Assembly: GCF_002210345.1 (NCBI RefSeq)
Contig: NZ_MWQI01000001.1
Span: forward strand, 744,001 to 808,000
DNA length: 64,000 bases
DNA from: Fibrobacter sp. UWB4
Lineage (GTDB): Bacteria > Fibrobacterota > Fibrobacteria > Fibrobacterales > Fibrobacteraceae
Reading direction: 5' to 3'
The position numbers and the translations under genes are program-made. A model generated the notes under the pieces. The model had not been told where the DNA came from, ran no database searches, and worked only from the letters and a program-made list of their open reading frames with translations. Positions 15,122 through 62,628 of this stretch are shown here, piece by piece. Numbering within the stretch: the first letter of the stretch is position 1; every line of letters begins with the position of its first letter.

Positions 15122-15212
15122 CTTAGTCAATGGTCATTAGTCTTTAGTGATTAATTGCGGCAAAGCTGCCAAGTTTTAAACTAATAACTAGTGACTGATA
15201 ACTAGTGACTAT
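15122..15212. repeat. Inverted pair of 7-bp-period arrays around a small hairpin
   Basis: The left arm reads in sevens as TTAGTCA ATGGTCA and then TTAGTCT TTAGTGA. The right arm reads ACTAATA ACTAGTG and then ACTGATA ACTAGTG. The right arm is roughly the inverse of the left. Between them is the hairpin GCGGCAAAGCTGCC. The right arm ends three bases before the ATG at 15215. Confidence 0.8.
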
Positions 15213-20769: not shown

Positions 20770-20997
20770 AGTTAGTCAATGGTTGTTAGTCAATGGTTGT
20801 ATTAGACGAGAGATCGCTTCGCTGGTAGACGAAAGACGAGAGTGGCGAATGCAGCGAATACGCTTGCGTATACATTGCAGAGCCGACCAGTCTTGGCTCG
20901 AAGAGCAAAGACGAGAGAGGAAAAGTCGCAGCTTCGCTGCCAAACTATAATCTTTCGTCTCTCGTCTGTAGCCGCGTAGCGGCGTTCTTTCGTCTTA
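20770..20997. repeat. Composite heptamer repeat region between yfcE-like and TPR-lipoprotein genes
   Basis: It begins with two 14-base copies of TTAGTCAATGGTTG, then has AGACGAG and AGACGAA units. A central segment holds short inverted repeats, including ACGCTTGCGT and GCAGCTTCGCTGC. The inverse-orientation units CTTTCGT CTCTCGT close the element. The right end includes TTCTTTCGTCTTA, whose TTA is the stop codon of the minus-strand lipoprotein gene. Confidence 0.75.
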
Positions 20998-26279: not shown

Positions 26280-26563
26280 GCGCCGAAGGCGCAGTAGGCA
26301 GTAGACGGTAGGCAGTAGGCTGTGGATTCTAAACAGGAATGTTATGAGATTGTTTTTATTTGTCATGCCCGACGCCGATCGGGCATCGCCCTCTCGTTTA
26401 TGAAAAAAGGAGATTGAGTAAAGCTCGATGCCATCCCGAATCCCAGCTTCTCGTCATCCCGAATCCCGTAGGGATGAGGGATCCAGTTAAGGCTAGATTT
26501 TTACTGGATTCTGCTCCTACAAACAACTAATGACTATTGACTAATGACTAGCCACTAACCACT
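26280..26563. repeat. Cluster of intergenic repeats behind gapA
   Basis: The hairpin GCGCCGAAGGCGC is followed by heptamers GTAGGCA GTAGACG and GTAGGCA GTAGGCT (26293-26325). A REP-like palindrome TGTCATGCCCG...CGGGCATCGCC covers 26361-26390. CATCCCGAATCCC units with an inverse GGGATGAGGG lie at 26429-26486. TAATGAC heptamers at 26524-26563 run into the end of the next minus-strand gene and supply its stop codon. No gene was seen in this stretch. Confidence 0.8.
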
Positions 26564-41135: not shown

Positions 41136-41202
41136 GGAGGTGCCTGCTCGGAGGCGGGCATGACATTTTTACTGTCTACTTCCTACCGTCTACTGTCTAC
41201 TT
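41136..41202. repeat. REP-like palindrome followed by a heptamer array
   Basis: GGAGGTGCCTGCTCGGAGGC with GGGCATGACA (41136-41165) is a member of the REP-like family. The array at 41171-41202 reads, on the minus strand, GTAGACA GTAGACG and GTAGGAA GTAGACA. The first of these supplies the TAG stop codon of leuD. Confidence 0.8.
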
Positions 41203-43278: not shown

Positions 43279-43310
43279 AGACGAAAGACGAAAGACGAAA
43301 GACGAAAGAA
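43279..43310. repeat. Perfect heptamer tandem repeat (GACGAAA)n
   Basis: Four consecutive copies of GACGAAA stand between leuC and the terminator of the next minus-strand gene. This is the cleanest 7-bp array in the window. Confidence 0.9.
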
Positions 43311-43313
43311 TAA

Positions 43314-43340
43314 ACAAAAAACACGGCCTTGAAAGCCGTG
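43314..43340 (-). terminator. Rho-independent terminator of the 43371 lipoprotein gene
   Basis: On the minus strand CACGGC, a seven-base loop and GCCGTG are followed by T6. The stem ends about 30 bases after the lipoprotein stop. Confidence 0.8.
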
Positions 43341-55248: not shown

Positions 55249-55360
55249 TGGGGAAGTAGGAAGTAGACGGTAGGAAGTAGGAAGAGATCGTTTCTTGGTT
55301 ATGCTTTTGTCATTCCCGCCGGAGCCTGTGCTGAGCGGAGTCGATGTAAGCGGGAATCAC
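55246..55360. repeat. Heptamer array and CATTCCCGCC palindrome behind prfC
   Basis: GTAGGAA GTAGACG GTAGGAA GTAGGAA units begin within a few bases of the prfC stop. GTCATTCCCGCCGG at 55309 is matched by GCGGGAATCAC at 55350-55360, enclosing CTGAGCGGAG. The palindrome could act as the 3' end of the prfC message. Confidence 0.75.
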
Positions 55361-56303: not shown

Positions 56304-58898
56304 TTAATTGGGCGCTTCTTTCGGTGACTTTGTTATGACATAATCACATGCTTCAATGATTTCTTTTCCAGAAATGGTTCCGACAACTTCCTTAATTGGT
56401 TGATCAATGGTGCTTTCTTTCGTTATGAGATTGACGTCTTCTTGCCAAACTTCCGCACATGCTTTTGCTATAATAGTTGATAGAATCATGGTTTCTTTGT
56501 AAATCGGAAAATAATCATGTCGATTAAAAGTTCTTAACATCCTAAAATTGCTAGATCTCAGAATATAGGGAATGAAAGAGACACTCCAGAATGTATTGTC
56601 ACTATAAACAATATTGTGTTCTTCTAAAATGTCAGTCATTGTTTTTTGAAAAATAACATACTTGTTATAAGCTGTGGTATTGATTATTTGTTTTATATCG
56701 TTGTAATTGACTGGTTTGCCCTTATAGTATGCTACGTGTAAATTCTTTGTATTGGCACAAAAAGCATGTACTACAGATGCGATCTGGAAATCTGGATCAT
56801 CTTTTTCCCAAGATAGGTCTTCAGATAATATTTCTACTTGCTCCTCAATCCATTTTTTGAAATCACTTTCAGAAATACATGGGTATGCTCTATATCTATT
56901 TGCTTCATGACAGGTTGCCGTTAAAACGCCCATATAACGCCTTGTATTACCGGCGGCTATCCCCCCAACAGTTAAGAATCCATCAACGTTTGCATCAAGA
57001 CATCCTCTACCAAGGATGTCTCCTTTTTGATTTTTTACTAATCTTACCCTAGAACTGATTTCTTTTAAGTAAGCATCATTGATTTCTTTATCACCAAAGT
57101 GATAATATTTTCTTTTATTATTCGCGTGTATCCTTTTAAGAAAATCAAATGGATCCATTGTTTTCCAGTCATTTGCGCTTATAATCTTTTTTTTACTAGT
57201 CATGTTTGTTGTTAAGTATATATTACAATCCATGCATGAAAATAAACTTGCTATATAAGAATCTATAGGGACTTTTGTTTCTGCAAGTTCATCGCTTAAT
57301 TTTGAAGGATCCTTTAGGTGTACGCGTATTTTTGTACCCCCGTTTTTTATATATTCATTTTGTTCAGCCCGTCTTAATAAAGGCCTTGATTTAGATCCTG
57401 CTGTAAATTCAAGAACCCTAGTGTCTTCACGATGTTCATCATATCTTCGTGTGGTTACAGTAACCTTGTCTCCTAACATAAAAACAGAGTAAAAGCCTAT
57501 CCCAAAATGCCCTGTTGATTGAAAACCCGAATTTTCTAATCCAGGGAGTTCATCTCGCATTAAACTTGAATGCCAAAAAGAGGTCCCGAAATCAAGAAAA
57601 GGTCCTGCTAACACCTTTTCTGACATGCCAATTCCCGTGTCCTCAACTTCAATAAATGGTTCTTCTGAGCTTGTATCTATGGTAATGTTGATATCACCCC
57701 AAGATTCGTCCTCGTTATCCATTTTGCGACGTGCTCGAATTGCATCTGATGCGTTCTGAACCATTTCTCTTAAGGGAACGAGTTGGTTGTCGCCATATAG
57801 GGCTACACCACCTAACGATTGAACGAGGCTAGACACGTTTGTCACTTTCATTTGGATGTCAACAGGAGTCCATCCATCGACCTTAATATGTGTTGATAGA
57901 GCTTTCGGTGAATCAATATCTTTTACGCAATAGGCTCCTAAAGGTTCAATGTTTAATCTTGAAAATAGCAAGTCGACATCGCGGAGTTCTTGATTTATCA
58001 TTTTAAGCGTGTCGTGACACAACCACCAACTATCTCGTTCGGATTTTGAGAAAGCTGAATTTGATATGTAAACTAATTGACCTTTTTGAACTGAGGGATT
58101 GTGCAATTTAGAATGAAAATTCCAATGAAGACGAGATTGATTGTTTAATTTTTGCGTAAACCATAAAATATAGGGCGTTCTGTCGGCCGTAATGTGAATG
58201 GCGTCGGCGATTCTAAGAATGCAAGCCAATTTTAATGGACTCAATTTCCATTGTGACGGAAATCCAGACGGAGAAATCTCTTCATTAAGAGTCTCTTTTT
58301 CGATTTCATCCATGGCTAAACCATGGCTTGCTGCAATTTCTCCAATAGTACTTCCAAAAGATTCTCTCAAATCAGGATTTTCAATAAGATACGCGTACTC
58401 TTTTTTAAATCCCTTTTCAGCTTCGAAACGGAACAAGGGTAATTCCTTTGCATTTAGGGTGTGCTGTTTCCGAATAGTTTCTTCATCAGCTTTTCGTTGG
58501 GCTTCATCTTGTGCGTGTGTTTCCCTAATGAAATATGCGTAGGTATCTTTCCACAAATCGGTCTCCCTTAATGAAGAGTAATCATTATAAATAGCGGGAC
58601 TCATTCCTAAATCATGAAATAAAAAAGAACAGCCTAGAACATAAGCTTCAACAGGATTTATTTTAATTTCAGAATCTGTTAAAATGATGTCCGTCATTTG
58701 CCATAATGCGTCTGAATGCGATATATTATGTACGGTATATCCCGGAAATAAAGATGGTATTTTGCCAAGAAACTCTGCAATTCGCTCTCTTGTTTGGATA
58801 AAGGATGCTTGTAGTATATTGATTTTATCTTGGTTTGCATCATTAGTTAAACCAAGAGTTTCATTCCATAATTTTGATGTCTTATAGTCGTAATCCAT
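56304..58898 (-). CDS. HD-domain / Hsp90-like ATPase fusion protein
   Basis: 864 residues from the ATG at 58898 with AGAGG seven bases before it. Residues 55-300 form an HD metal-hydrolase domain: His57/His61 (HNISHSDALW), His95-Asp96 (FLFHDLG), a His at 192 and Asp232 (ILRIADAIHITADR). Residues about 360-560 form a GHKL ATPase closest to Hsp90: Glu378 and Asn382 (REMVQNASDAI), Asp420 (EDTGIGMS) and GHFGIGFYS at 463-471. The remaining 300 residues resemble Hsp90 middle segments in feel. Residues for metal and ATP binding are intact. It is AT-rich, sits alone next to a toxin-antitoxin pair, and has no client or operon partner. The role is unknown; a stress or anti-phage function is inference. 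Confidence 0.8.
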   Translation of the reverse strand: MDYDYKTSKLWNETLGLTNDANQDKINILQASFIQTRERIAEFLGKIPSLFPGYTVHNISHSDALWQMTDIILTDSEIKINPVEAYVLGCSFLFHDLGMSPAIYNDYSSLRETDLWKDTYAYFIRETHAQDEAQRKADEETIRKQHTLNAKELPLFRFEAEKGFKKEYAYLIENPDLRESFGSTIGEIAASHGLAMDEIEKETLNEEISPSGFPSQWKLSPLKLACILRIADAIHITADRTPYILWFTQKLNNQSRLHWNFHSKLHNPSVQKGQLVYISNSAFSKSERDSWWLCHDTLKMINQELRDVDLLFSRLNIEPLGAYCVKDIDSPKALSTHIKVDGWTPVDIQMKVTNVSSLVQSLGGVALYGDNQLVPLREMVQNASDAIRARRKMDNEDESWGDINITIDTSSEEPFIEVEDTGIGMSEKVLAGPFLDFGTSFWHSSLMRDELPGLENSGFQSTGHFGIGFYSVFMLGDKVTVTTRRYDEHREDTRVLEFTAGSKSRPLLRRAEQNEYIKNGGTKIRVHLKDPSKLSDELAETKVPIDSYIASLFSCMDCNIYLTTNMTSKKKIISANDWKTMDPFDFLKRIHANNKRKYYHFGDKEINDAYLKEISSRVRLVKNQKGDILGRGCLDANVDGFLTVGGIAAGNTRRYMGVLTATCHEANRYRAYPCISESDFKKWIEEQVEILSEDLSWEKDDPDFQIASVVHAFCANTKNLHVAYYKGKPVNYNDIKQIINTTAYNKYVIFQKTMTDILEEHNIVYSDNTFWSVSFIPYILRSSNFRMLRTFNRHDYFPIYKETMILSTIIAKACAEVWQEDVNLITKESTIDQPIKEVVGTISGKEIIEACDYVITKSPKEAPN

Positions 58899-58943
58899 GT
58901 AAGAACCTCTATGCAGGAGGATTTTTTTGATGGTAAAGTACAC

Positions 58944-59320
58944 CGTTAATTTACATTTAAAATATAGCCAAATTATTCATAATTATTTCCATGACAATTT
59001 GCAAATGAGTGGTGTTTTATCTATCCGTTGCTGGAGGTGGGGCCTGGTGTTTGTATATATATTCACTTTTGATATCGGATTTGATAATTAGGGGTTGTTT
59101 GCTGCTCTTTGATCGACTCAAAATCCCGAAAATGCGAAAAAGTGCTACCAAAAGCTGGAAAAAGTGTTTTTTGACATCATGCTTTCTATATAAATTAATT
59201 AGAATGAGGCGTTTTTGAGTCTTTGTAGCGTTGCCTGTGTTACCAAATTGGCCGAGAATGGCGTTTTGGTACCATAAAACCGGCAAAAATGGTCTGTCTG
59301 TTCTTTTTTAAGGCCGCGAA
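58944..59320. other. Long intergenic region without a supported gene
   Basis: Nearly 380 bases, AT-rich at the left. A stretch with AAAAAGTG twice (59136-59169) and GGTACCATAAAACC near 59268 shows short inverted repeats. Frames here are short and unlike proteins. Nothing further can be supported. Confidence 0.5.
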
Positions 59321-59350
59321 CTTCCTACTTCCTACTTCCTACTGTCTACT
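59321..59350. repeat. Heptamer array CTTCCTA upstream of lysS
   Basis: Three CTTCCTA units and one CTGTCTA unit. The orientation is inverse to the array at 60922 behind lysS. Confidence 0.85.
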
Positions 59351-59410: not shown

Positions 59411-60916
59411 ATGGCAATGCAAGATATGAATGACCAGGTGATGGCTCGCTTGGCTAAGCTCGACAAGTTCAAGGAAATGGGTGTGGATGCTTATCCGCAC
59501 AAGTTTAACAGGACCCATGATTCCAAGGTTTTGAAGGAAAACAAGGAAGCCTTGATGGTGACCAAGGAACCGGTTGCATTTGCCGGCCGCGTTGTGCGTT
59601 TCAATCGCAAGGGTAAAATGTGCTTTATGCACCTCAAGGACCGCTATGGCCGCTTGCAGGTTGTGGTTGCCCGTGACGAAGTGGGCGAAGAAAACTACGA
59701 AATCGTGAAGATGACCGACCTCGGTGACTTCATCGGTGTGAACGGTACGATGTTCGAAACGCAGAGCGGTGAATACTCTGTGCGTGCCGAAAAGGTCACG
59801 ATGCTTTCGAAGGCTGTGCGCCCGCTCCCGGTCGCCAAGGAAAAGGTTGACGAAAACGGCAACAAGGTCGTGTTCAACGAATTTGCCGACGTGGATACCC
59901 GCTACCGCCAGCGCTATATCGACATGGCCTTGAACGATGACGTGAAGGAAGTCTTCATCAAGCGTTCCAAGATCATGCAGGCTATCCGTGAATACCTCAT
60001 CGAAAAGGGATTCATCGAAGTTGAAACCCCGACGCTGCAGCCGATTTACGGTGGTGCAAACGCTCGTCCGTTTACGACGCACCACAACGCTTGCGACATG
60101 ACGCTTTACTTGCGTGTTGCTCCGGAACTTTACCTCAAGCGCTGCATCATCGGCGGTATGGAAAAGGTTTTCGAGTTCTGCAAGAACTTCCGCAACGAAG
60201 GTATGGACCGTACGCATAGCCCGGAATTCACTGGCCTCGAATTTTACGAAGCCTACGCCGACTACAACGACATGATGGTCCACTTCGAAAACATTTACGA
60301 ACGCGCCTGCATTGCCGCTAACGGTACGACCAAGATCAACTACCAGGGCAAGGAAATCGACTTCAAGGCTCCGTGGCCGCGTTACAGCATGATCGAAGCC
60401 ATTGAAAAGTTCGGTGGCATTAAGGTCAACGACATGAGCGACGACGAAATCAAGGCCAAGATGGAAGAACTCGGCGGTCACCTCGATGGTGAATTTACTC
60501 GTGGCCGTGGCATCTTGGAACTCTTCGATCTCACGGTGGAAGGCAAGCTCATCCAGCCGACGATCATCAAGGATATGCCGACCGAAAGCACGCCGCTCTG
60601 CAAGAAGCACCGCACGATTGCAGGCCTCATCGAACAGTTCGAACCGTATGCCAACGGCTGGGAACTCGGTAACGCTTATACCGAACTTAACGACCCGATC
60701 CGCCAGCGCGAACTCTTGGAAGACCAGGTGCGTCGTGGCCGTGGTGGTGAAGGTGAAACCCACCCGATGGACGAAAACTTCATGCATGCTGTGGAAAGCG
60801 GTCTTCCGCCGACGGGCGGCGTGGGCTTTGGCATCGACCGCATGGTTATGCTCCTCACGAACCAGCAGACCATCCGCGACGTGCAGCTCTTCCCGCTCAT
60901 GAAGCCGGAAGTTTAG
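59411..60916 (+). CDS. lysS: Lysyl-tRNA synthetase, class II
   Basis: 501 residues. An OB-fold anticodon-binding domain (about 55-165, GRVVRFNRKGKMCFMHLKDR) precedes the class II core: motif 2 FRNEGMDRTHSPEFTGLEFY near 265 and motif 3 PTGGVGFGIDRMVMLLTNQQ near 475. It charges tRNA-Lys, a copy of which lies at 28490. GAGGT precedes the ATG. The gene is bracketed by inverse heptamer arrays (59321-59350 and 60922-60954). Confidence 0.97.
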   Translation: MAMQDMNDQVMARLAKLDKFKEMGVDAYPHKFNRTHDSKVLKENKEALMVTKEPVAFAGRVVRFNRKGKMCFMHLKDRYGRLQVVVARDEVGEENYEIVKMTDLGDFIGVNGTMFETQSGEYSVRAEKVTMLSKAVRPLPVAKEKVDENGNKVVFNEFADVDTRYRQRYIDMALNDDVKEVFIKRSKIMQAIREYLIEKGFIEVETPTLQPIYGGANARPFTTHHNACDMTLYLRVAPELYLKRCIIGGMEKVFEFCKNFRNEGMDRTHSPEFTGLEFYEAYADYNDMMVHFENIYERACIAANGTTKINYQGKEIDFKAPWPRYSMIEAIEKFGGIKVNDMSDDEIKAKMEELGGHLDGEFTRGRGILELFDLTVEGKLIQPTIIKDMPTESTPLCKKHRTIAGLIEQFEPYANGWELGNAYTELNDPIRQRELLEDQVRRGRGGEGETHPMDENFMHAVESGLPPTGGVGFGIDRMVMLLTNQQTIRDVQLFPLMKPEV

Positions 60917-60921
60917 CTTCG

Positions 60922-60954
60922 CAGTAGACAGTAGACGGTAGGAAGTAGACAGTA
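60922..60954. repeat. Heptamer array GTAGACA/GTAGGAA left of the S23 gene
   Basis: Reads GTAGACA GTAGACG GTAGGAA GTAGACA. It begins six bases behind the lysS stop, after GCTTCGC. Its inverse partner lies at 61346-61380 on the other side of the four-helix-bundle gene. Confidence 0.85.
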
Positions 60955-60972
60955 AATTGCAGGAGCAAGATT

Positions 60973-61344
60973 ATGACTCAAGGATATCGAGATTTCGTTG
61001 TTTGGCAACAAGCAATGGATGTCGCTGTTGAAACCTATCGTCTAACAAGTTCTTTTCCAAAAGAAGAAATGTTTGGTTTGACGTCTCAAATGCGCCGTGC
61101 CGCAGTCTCTATTGCTAGTAATATTGCTGAAGGTGAAGGTCGTAAATCAAAAAATGAGTTTTCTCATTTTCTTGGAATTGCTCTTGGTTCAAAATCTGAA
61201 TTGGAAACGCAACTTATATTAAGTGAACGAGTCAATTTGTTAAAAACAACAGATACGGAACCTATAAAAAAGTCCCTTGATGATATTGGTAAAATGCTAA
61301 CGGCTCTAAGGAGAAAAATCGGAAGTCAGAAAAATCTGGAGTAG
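60973..61344 (+). CDS. Four-helix-bundle protein (S23 / 23S-intervening-sequence family)
   Basis: 123 residues. The pattern FVVWQQAMDVAVETYRLTSS, FPKEEMFGLTSQMRRAAVSI and ASNIAEGEGRKSKNEFSHFL is diagnostic of PF05635, first found inside 23S rRNA intervening sequences and related to the Avd proteins of diversity-generating retroelements. The family folds as a pentameric four-helix bundle with a basic, nucleic-acid-binding surface. Here it stands alone between lysS and lolC, with no rRNA or reverse transcriptase nearby. AGGAGCAAG precedes the ATG. Inverse heptamer arrays flank it on both sides, which makes it look like cargo or helper of a small mobile unit. Its function is not established. Confidence 0.93.
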   Translation: MTQGYRDFVVWQQAMDVAVETYRLTSSFPKEEMFGLTSQMRRAAVSIASNIAEGEGRKSKNEFSHFLGIALGSKSELETQLILSERVNLLKTTDTEPIKKSLDDIGKMLTALRRKIGSQKNLE

Positions 61345-61345
61345 G

Positions 61346-61380
61346 TCTTCCTACTTCCTACTTCCTACTTCCTACTTCCT
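61346..61380. repeat. Heptamer array CTTCCTA right of the S23 gene
   Basis: Five near-perfect CTTCCTA units from two bases after the S23 stop to the base before the lolC ATG. It replaces the lolC ribosome binding site. Confidence 0.9.
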
Positions 61381-62628
61381 ATGAACAAACTCGAACTTCT
61401 CATTGCTTGGCGTTACTTGGGGGCTCAACGTAAGAGTCTCTTCGTTTCGCTTATTGGTATTTTCAGTATGCTCGGCGTTTCCATTGGCGTGTTTGCGCTG
61501 GTGGTGGCGCTTGCGGCGGTCAACGGTTTCGAAGAAGAGGTCACGGCCCAGATGATTGGGAAAGATGCTCACTTTGAACTGATGGCGTACAATGGCAATC
61601 CGATTGGTCCGTACGATAGCTTGACTAAAGAGGTTCATGCTCGTGTGCCTGACGTTGTCGCTTCGTCGCCATTTATCGTTTACAAGGTGGGCATCAGCTC
61701 CAAGAAGGTGAACGACGGCATTGTCATTTACGGCATTGATCCGGCTACGGCCAAGGGAGTGACGGACATCCACAAGTACATCAAGTGGGGAAGTTACTCT
61801 GTCGATAGTTTGGAAGATATGAGCGGCAAGCTCCGTCCGGGAATTATTCTCGGGACTGGACTTGCGGCGCGCTTGCGCGTTGTCGTTGGTGACAAACTCG
61901 TGTTGCAGACGTTCCAGAGTCCGGACGAGGCGATGAGTTCGGGCGGCCCGAAGATGATGATGTGTGTGGTGAGTGGCATCTTCGAGACGGGCACTTACGA
62001 ATATGATGGTAACCTTGCGTATGTCGGCATTTCGGATTTGCAGAAACTGCTTGGCATGGGGAACACCGTGACTGGCATCCAGTTCCGCATCAAGGATCAC
62101 TGGAAAGCAGGCGAGGCGGTCGATAGCATGGCGACTTGGCTCTCTTATCCGTACTACGGAATGGATTGGAAGTCCAAGAACATCACGCTCCTCAAGTGGA
62201 TGAATTATGAAAAGTTCATTGTGGCGGCGGTGATTTGCCTGATCATTCTCGTGGCGGCGTTCAACATCATCAGTTCGCTTATCATGGTCGTGATCGACAA
62301 GACAAAGGAAATCGGCATCTTGCGCAGTATGGGCTTTAGCAAGGCGGGCGTCATGCGCGTGTTCATGCTGATGGGCAGTTTCATTGGCGTGGGCGGTACC
62401 GTTGTGGGAGGGACTATTGGTCTTGTGCTTTGCAAGTTGCAGGAGGCCTACCACTTCATTAAGCTTCCGGGCGATGTGTACGTGATTCCGTATTTCCCGA
62501 TTTCGGTGCATGCGATTGACGTGATTTTGATTTTTGTGATTGGTATTGTTTTGTGCGTGTCCGCGACGCTTTTGCCGGCATGGAAGGCAAGCCGTTTGGA
62601 TCCTGTGGGGGCGATTAGACATGAGTAG
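61381..62628 (+). CDS. lolC: LolC/LolE-family lipoprotein-release ABC permease
   Basis: 415 residues. The first helix (SLFVSLIGIFSMLGVSIGVF, residues 19-38), a periplasmic domain (about 45-270) and three C-terminal helices in an FtsX domain (about 280-405, INILVAAFNIISSLIMVVID-like order, GVGGTVVGGTIGLVLCKL) match LolC/LolE. Only one permease gene is present, so the transporter may use it as a homodimer (LolF-like). With the LolD-type ATPase that overlaps its end it should extract outer-membrane lipoproteins, of which several are encoded in this window. A CTTCCTA array ends directly at the ATG. Confidence 0.9.
   Translation: MNKLELLIAWRYLGAQRKSLFVSLIGIFSMLGVSIGVFALVVALAAVNGFEEEVTAQMIGKDAHFELMAYNGNPIGPYDSLTKEVHARVPDVVASSPFIVYKVGISSKKVNDGIVIYGIDPATAKGVTDIHKYIKWGSYSVDSLEDMSGKLRPGIILGTGLAARLRVVVGDKLVLQTFQSPDEAMSSGGPKMMMCVVSGIFETGTYEYDGNLAYVGISDLQKLLGMGNTVTGIQFRIKDHWKAGEAVDSMATWLSYPYYGMDWKSKNITLLKWMNYEKFIVAAVICLIILVAAFNIISSLIMVVIDKTKEIGILRSMGFSKAGVMRVFMLMGSFIGVGGTVVGGTIGLVLCKLQEAYHFIKLPGDVYVIPYFPISVHAIDVILIFVIGIVLCVSATLLPAWKASRLDPVGAIRHE

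Follow-up and report, generated by a model that had tools for sequence, protein, structure and literature searches.

S23-family genes bracketed by inverted heptamer arrays: a probable class of small mobile elements in Fibrobacter, with the same layout in other phyla

We analysed a 64,000-nucleotide stretch of the genome of Fibrobacter sp. UWB4 (contig NZ_MWQI01000001.1, positions 744,001 to 808,000; hereafter the window), in which a gene of the S23 family lies between lysS and a lolC-like gene and is enclosed by inverted arrays of 7-bp repeats. The best explanation of this arrangement, and one that we consider probable, is that the S23 gene and its arrays constitute a small mobile selfish element whose protein would recognise its own arrays as a pentamer and would also aid gene-free copies of the element. 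Comparison of sequences supports the reading as a mobile unit well, recognition of the arrays by an S23 pentamer is a plausible model, and we infer both the binding and the movement in trans. What can be read from the sequences themselves is the unit with its inverted ends, its turnover among genomes, and the agreement of protein clade with heptamer type and with the number of matching arrays.

The S23 gene and its end arrays

The S23 gene (60973-61344, + strand) is an open reading frame of 123 amino acids that matches both profiles of the family far above their cut-offs (PF05635, 135.1 bits against 33.8; TIGR02436, 132 bits against 24) and is predicted to fold as a four-helix bundle. Upstream of it stands a 33-bp array on the + strand (60922-60954) of five AG-anchored heptamers of the AGTAGAC/AGTAGGA type, which reads AGTAGAC, AGTAGAC, GGTAGGA, AGTAGAC and AGTA. 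Downstream, Tandem Repeats Finder reports five CTTCCTA units at 100% match (61347-61381), which are AGTAGGA-type units on the opposite strand; the two arrays are thus not identical in their units. The right array sets in about 2 bases past the S23 stop codon, and its far end overlaps the ATG of the lolC-like gene (61381-62628, + strand), an open reading frame also recognised by comparison with relatives. The left neighbour (59411-60916, + strand) is an open reading frame that carries the name lysS from a preliminary description made from the letters alone. That description had placed the gene between inverse heptamer arrays, the right one running from just past the S23 stop to the lolC start; inspection of the sequence and Tandem Repeats Finder bear out both statements, with coordinates shifted by 1-2 bases at most.

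The same layout recurs throughout the genus, where approximately 100 S23 genes are spread over 53 of 80 Fibrobacter genomes. At lag 7 their upstream flanks score 13.3 on average and their downstream flanks 13.0, whereas lags other than multiples of seven give about 3-4, and a strict threshold is passed by 46/70 upstream and 39/70 downstream flanks compared with 1.2% of control windows from the same loci. We also fetched 80 S23 loci from GTDB genomes, about 70 of which (L132-L201) come from other phyla: Bacteroidota, Planctomycetota, Pseudomonadota, cyanobacteria, candidate phyla and one archaeon. Here the mean lag-7 score is 9.3-9.5, and a threshold for period 7 or 8 is passed by 38/71 and 45/70 flanks (controls, 1.3% and 0.3%). 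When the upstream flank is compared with the reverse complement of the downstream flank, the mean match is 19.6, against 8.7 for swapped pairs, and it lies above the 95% level in 52 of 68 S23 genes. AG units are found, with few exceptions, on the coding strand in the upstream array and on the opposite strand in the downstream one, and S23 genes of cyanobacterial plasmids share this layout (GGGAACA/TGTTCCC and GGGTGTA/TACACCC, for example). Both the control lags and the control windows rule out chance or simple slippage as the origin of the arrays. One Flavobacterium clade, SHFRKILVWQK (L164, L171, L173, L181, L182 and L192), has an 8-bp unit (CTTAGAAT) instead of a 7-bp one, so that the period is itself clade-specific. 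None of the fetched loci contains a 23S rRNA motif, and a search for phage carriage of S23 gave no matching phage record. The array association that had been anticipated for S23 genes elsewhere is thus present in the genus and beyond it, and the combination of S23 gene and arrays appears to be an undescribed family of small selfish elements with a wide distribution across phyla.

Turnover at one site and the pairing of clade with heptamer

Given that a mobile unit should be absent from some relatives, the site between lysS and lolC was compared across the genus. We found lolC in 72 of the 80 genomes and could analyse the site upstream of it in 69. An S23 gene is present in 35 of these sites and lacking in 34, one of the latter being masked and another situated at the end of a contig, which leaves 32 fully readable. 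The 35 occupants belong to four protein clades (FAYRKL, 13; TQGYRD, 10; AQSYKD, 7; SLEIW, 5), each with its clade-specific heptamer, while at most empty sites the lolC start follows the lysS stop after no more than a few bases. Two of the S23-less sites, those of G025 and G040, contain a gene-free element of inverted arrays. In G042, the N-terminus of LolC is identical to that of the window genome, and the site is empty save for a remnant, TTCTCGTC; this genome belongs to a well-supported lolC group of 17 genomes whose sites are either empty or of the TQGYRD, FAYRKL, AQSYKD or SLEIW type. A lolC tree of 68 genomes shows 28 changes of occupant (32.4 with shuffled labels), and S23-less and occupied states switch 16 times, at least nine of these switches being forced by well-supported branches. 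The preliminary description had proposed a mobile unit, an idea to be dropped if all relatives carried the same gene at this site or if S23 genes elsewhere lacked arrays; neither was found, and the proposal gains support. Three hot sites together hold 62 of the 84 distinct Fibrobacter S23 genes (lysS/lolC, upstream of MLFLLLTIGPAFLF genes and upstream of MEGLLILIG genes), and each hosts several S23 clades.

A history of ancient vertical descent with repeated loss, in which the arrays arose by replication slippage, would account for the sub-lineages whose members share both the site and its S23 (G039/G044 and G011/G059). It is at odds with four clades and 28 occupant changes at one site, with the failure of unrelated periods to give comparable arrays, and with the match of the two sides in inverted form, and we give it almost no credence.

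Each clade is accompanied by its own heptamer: TQGYRD by GTAGGAA/GTAGACA, FAYRKL by AGACGAG/A, AQSYKD by AGTGGTT, ESNYK by TTAGAAC, AVSNYQ by TAGTTAC, and SLEIW by GAGTTxT or AGGTTxT. Among pairs of S23 genes at different sites, which are not mutually independent, those with at least 55% protein identity have a mean array similarity of 0.53, with 25% above 0.8, and those with less than 40% identity have a mean of 0.22, with none above 0.8. Because one site hosts several types, the heptamer tracks the protein rather than the place. The two genomes of the FAYRKL clade without AGACGAR arrays (G031 and G037) bear a different heptamer, AAAGGTT, at the flanks of their own S23 genes. The proteins are under purifying selection (median dN/dS, 0.09). 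A second, divergent Fibrobacter S23 subfamily (L107-L120) has the heptamers GTGGAAT, GATAATG and GAATGCT and shares part of the sites of the main subfamily.

These data bear on the possibility that the arrays are primary, as repeats of the short tandemly repeated repetitive (STRR) kind, and that S23 genes are passengers or parasites which entered arrays already in place. Many arrays do lack an S23 gene, and composites are found in which one element type is nested in or beside the remnants of another: at L060 (G038), L006, L013, L017 and L018, an AGTGGTT-type S23 unit lies in or beside GTAGGAA or TCTCGTC array remnants. The AGTGGTT-type S23 unit there keeps 7-bp register with the remnants, as if one element had entered or replaced another. 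A given protein clade nevertheless comes with one heptamer at separate sites, and at a single site the heptamer varies with the protein; the arrays therefore travel with the gene, and array primacy is, in our judgement, distinctly unlikely.

A further candidate explanation assigns S23 no part in recognition and regards the inverted arrays as a mere RNA stem cut by RNase III, as in the intervening sequences (IVSs) of rRNA. In the IVS of Coxiella, an S23 open reading frame lies between 28-bp inverted ends, and RNase III excises the element from 23S rRNA at this stem (PMC4990558). The arrays that flank S23 genes are likewise roughly complementary. Yet SLEIW left units (TGAGTT) and reverse-complemented right units (TCAGTT) never match in full, the two arrays of the window differ as well, and a stem would explain neither the clade-specific heptamers nor the purifying selection on S23, which makes this account very unlikely. 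Selection for a perfectly paired RNA stem was considered too and judged unlikely, since the two SLEIW motifs differ in every repeat.

Gene-free arrays

Three-unit arrays were counted genome-wide in the 80 genomes, and the medians for the matching heptamer with the clade present and absent were 49 and 1 for TQGYRD, 56 and 5 for AQSYKD, 30.5 and 8 for FAYRKL, and 68.5 and 0 for ESNYK. Together with the gene-free elements in the lysS-lolC slot of G025 and G040, these counts lend support to the earlier suggestion that gene-free forms may be moved in trans.

Closer inspection was made of the window genome (G000) in a 464-kb sample composed of the window and twenty 20-kb samples, with an array called at a lag-7 score of at least 10. 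This yielded 51 lag-7 arrays, 47 of them intergenic, with only 0-4 each at lags 4, 5, 8, 10, 11 and 13; as with STRR sequences, the arrays are thus 7-bp tandem repeats, intergenic and many per genome. AG-unit and CT-unit arrays are equally numerous, and oriented arrays no more than 200 bp apart stand mostly in the order AG then CT (seven pairs), the shortest gene-free pairs spanning 80-96 bp. The two heptamer types whose S23 is encoded in this genome account for 34 of 57 sampled arrays.

The preliminary description had pointed to two gene-free elements of inverted layout in the window. The first, at 15122-15212, is indeed a clean inverted pair of TTAGTCA type around a small hairpin, GGCAAAGCTGCC, as seen by sequence, Tandem Repeats Finder and relatives; at this place the element is common to G071 and missing in G001, and other heptamer types occur in G017 and G054. 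The second (20771-20997) is real according to sequence and Tandem Repeats Finder, although it is not a simple pair but a composite, in which a TTAGTCA-type array (GTTAGTCAATGGTT) comes first and an inverted AGACGAA/AGACGAG pair (AGACGAR) follows. The window also contains lone arrays. Those of the GTAGGAA/GTAGACA type are an AG array at 26291-26323 (+ strand; lag-7 scan) and a CT array at 41170-41201 (- strand; Tandem Repeats Finder and lag-7 scan), and those of the GTAGGAA type are an AG array at 55252-55284 (+ strand) and a CT array upstream of lysS at 59320-59350 (- strand), both from the lag-7 scan. A lone CT array of TTAGTCA type at 26526-26563 (- strand) came from the same scan, and an AGACGAA array at 43279-43323 (+ strand) from both the scan and Tandem Repeats Finder. 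Across the window and the G000 samples (L202-L221), 28 of 56 outer array ends are about 30 bp or less from the stop codon of a gene, against 4.2 expected. Start codons were considered as the target of gene-free arrays and discarded, as outer ends abut an ATG four times, compared with 4.2 at random positions. Elsewhere in the window, at 56304-58943 (- strand), lies a gene for an 879-residue protein that by eye resembles a fusion of an HD domain with an HSP90-like ATPase.

In a regulatory alternative, S23 has no part in mobility and is an RNA-binding regulator comparable to TRAP (trp RNA-binding attenuation protein), which acts on its own mRNA by way of the upstream array and on other genes by way of the gene-free arrays; the arrays would then change where they stand, and the gene would be passed on by conventional horizontal transfer. 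AG arrays do stand directly upstream of the S23 start codon, gene-free arrays adjoin many genes, and MacGregor has proposed a regulatory role for the TAACTGA arrays of Beggiatoaceae (PMC4679880). A regulator, however, would have no need of inverted arrays on both sides of S23, and the equal frequency of the two array orientations, the variation in array type between species at one intergenic place, and the presence or absence of the whole unit at lysS-lolC all speak against it. We regard this alternative as unlikely.

Protein, movement and known systems

The arrays and the protein appear to agree in number. At Fibrobacter S23 flanks, the number of AG units per distinct array peaks at five (30/83), followed by four (12) and six (11), and in other phyla four and five units are found 16 times each and six units 5 times; arrays span a median of 4.4 units in either set, equivalent to five AG contacts. 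The structure predicted for the window S23 by AlphaFold2 (AF2; mean predicted confidence, pLDDT, 94.9) best matches 2gsc (Xcc0516; template-modelling (TM) score, 0.90), followed by 2rld (BT_0352) and then by Avd and a ribonucleoprotein of diversity-generating retroelements (DGRs). The entries 2gsc and 2rld contain five chains each, and Xcc0516 has been described as a homopentameric torus (PMC4990558). This suggests that one S23 subunit may contact each heptamer.

We propose that the element would be a relative of the 23S rRNA IVS that lives between protein genes. With about five AG-anchored heptamers at each end, each strand would present one array at its 5' end, and this array is most likely read by the ring of five S23 subunits that the element itself encodes, each subunit taking one heptamer, on RNA or on single-stranded DNA, in the manner of TRAP. 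TRAP is a ring that reads short AG-containing repeats, one per subunit and eleven triplets in all; the fold of S23 is unrelated, its arrays have five heptamers, and its reading of them is putative. By gripping both ends, S23 might direct copying of the element to new intergenic sites by host enzymes, and gene-free copies with the same arrays could spread by the same route.

Several observations weigh against the S23 unit as a mobile element. The unit encodes no nuclease, polymerase or recombinase, and five array-rich genomes (G039, G041, G044, G052 and G059) gave no match to either RVT_1 or Y1_Tnp; Y1_Tnp is also missing from array-rich G067. No target-site duplication was seen, no consensus target was defined, and no insertion event was observed in the genomes compared, while homologous recombination of lysS-lolC segments could be a partial cause of the occupant turnover. 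Many matching arrays occur without the clade in G067 (94 of GTAGGAA) and G007 (123 of TTAGAAC), and this would require past residence or cross-recognition. Finally, phylogenetically independent pairs of genomes point nearly all in the same direction as the counts of matching arrays and are too few for significance.

Dependence on a reverse transcriptase or on a REP-associated tyrosine transposase (RAYT) can be rejected as a general requirement given the array-rich genomes that lack both RVT_1 and Y1_Tnp, and other host enzymes would therefore probably cut and copy the element. The left junction holds a possible trace of such copying: a short palindrome, in which the 3' end of lysS and an inverted copy of that end enclose a loop of three bases (such as TGAAGTCTAGC AGA GCTAGACTTCA), is present at 15 of 34 occupied sites and at 0 of 32 S23-less ones, which may point to copying by fold-back from a 3' end. 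Such palindromes occur in G007, G011, G017, G032-G034, G048, G059, G067, G069 and others, usually with the core GC-NNN-GC. As a general companion of arrays, palindromes with a three-base loop were rejected, since they are not enriched near arrays in the G000 sample.

Among the closest known systems are the 23S rRNA IVSs of, for example, Coxiella burnetii and Leptospira, which have a single S23 open reading frame and terminal inverted repeats, are sporadic and horizontally acquired, and have been called selfish. The Coxiella IVS even carries tandem heptamers, (GACAGAT)3-GACAGAA, just upstream of its open reading frame (PMC4990558), and Ralph and McClelland (1993), as cited there, proposed that the IVS is mobile and that mobility needs the open reading frame. 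The window unit has the terminal inverted repeats expected of an IVS; because it lies between lysS and lolC, outside rRNA genes, and an rRNA location defines an IVS, we set it apart from IVSs proper. In Fibrobacter, moreover, both ends are matched, clade-specific heptamer arrays, tens of gene-free arrays occur per genome, and S23 is under purifying selection, whereas the Coxiella open reading frame is decaying; this comparison draws on PMC4990558, as the fetched loci included no rRNA-embedded S23.

The cyanobacterial STRR heptamers and the Beggiatoaceae TAACTGA repeats (PMC4679880) are likewise tandem 7-bp arrays between genes, and their units differ from lineage to lineage. No protein partner is named in the reports on them, whereas here S23 is a matched one, and the S23 genes of cyanobacterial plasmids have heptamers of this kind on either flank. 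Miniature inverted-repeat transposable elements (MITEs) and repetitive extragenic palindromic sequences (REP/REPIN) are also short, gene-free, intergenic inverted elements that need a protein encoded elsewhere (RAYT, a Y1 transposase), but the ends of S23 elements are heptamer arrays instead of a fixed palindrome, and Y1_Tnp is missing from several array-rich genomes. The Avd protein of DGRs shares the four-helix-bundle fold (4dwl, TM 0.77; DGR ribonucleoprotein, 8ub7), although the window S23 scores below the cut-offs of both the Avd (33.5 bits against 80) and bAvd (29.7 against 40) models, and RVT_1 was not found in G000. On the Anabaena sp. 90 plasmid pANA02 (L249), an S23 gene with GACAGGT/CACCTGT arrays lies between cas6 and cas4. 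This arrangement may account for the 23S_rRNA_IVP genes that have been reported in cas loci (PMC3936711), which would then be inserted elements carried as passengers. We found no paper that ties S23 genes to heptamer arrays in general, in a literature search that covered subscription journals thinly, so that an earlier description is possible.

More broadly, S23 proteins could provide the recognition step for a class of mobile elements that spans the bacteria and has no known transposase. A ring of five would read the five heptamers of its own ends, a unit to each subunit, and mobilise S23-bearing (autonomous) and gene-free copies alike, with rRNA IVSs, STRR sequences and TAACTGA repeats as branches of one family; we put this at slightly below an even chance. 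Two old questions, the function of S23 proteins, which were first seen inside 23S rRNA genes, and the source of intergenic heptamer arrays, are now tied together: protein and arrays occur as a unit in many phyla, with sequences that are matched and numbers that apparently are as well, five units to five subunits.
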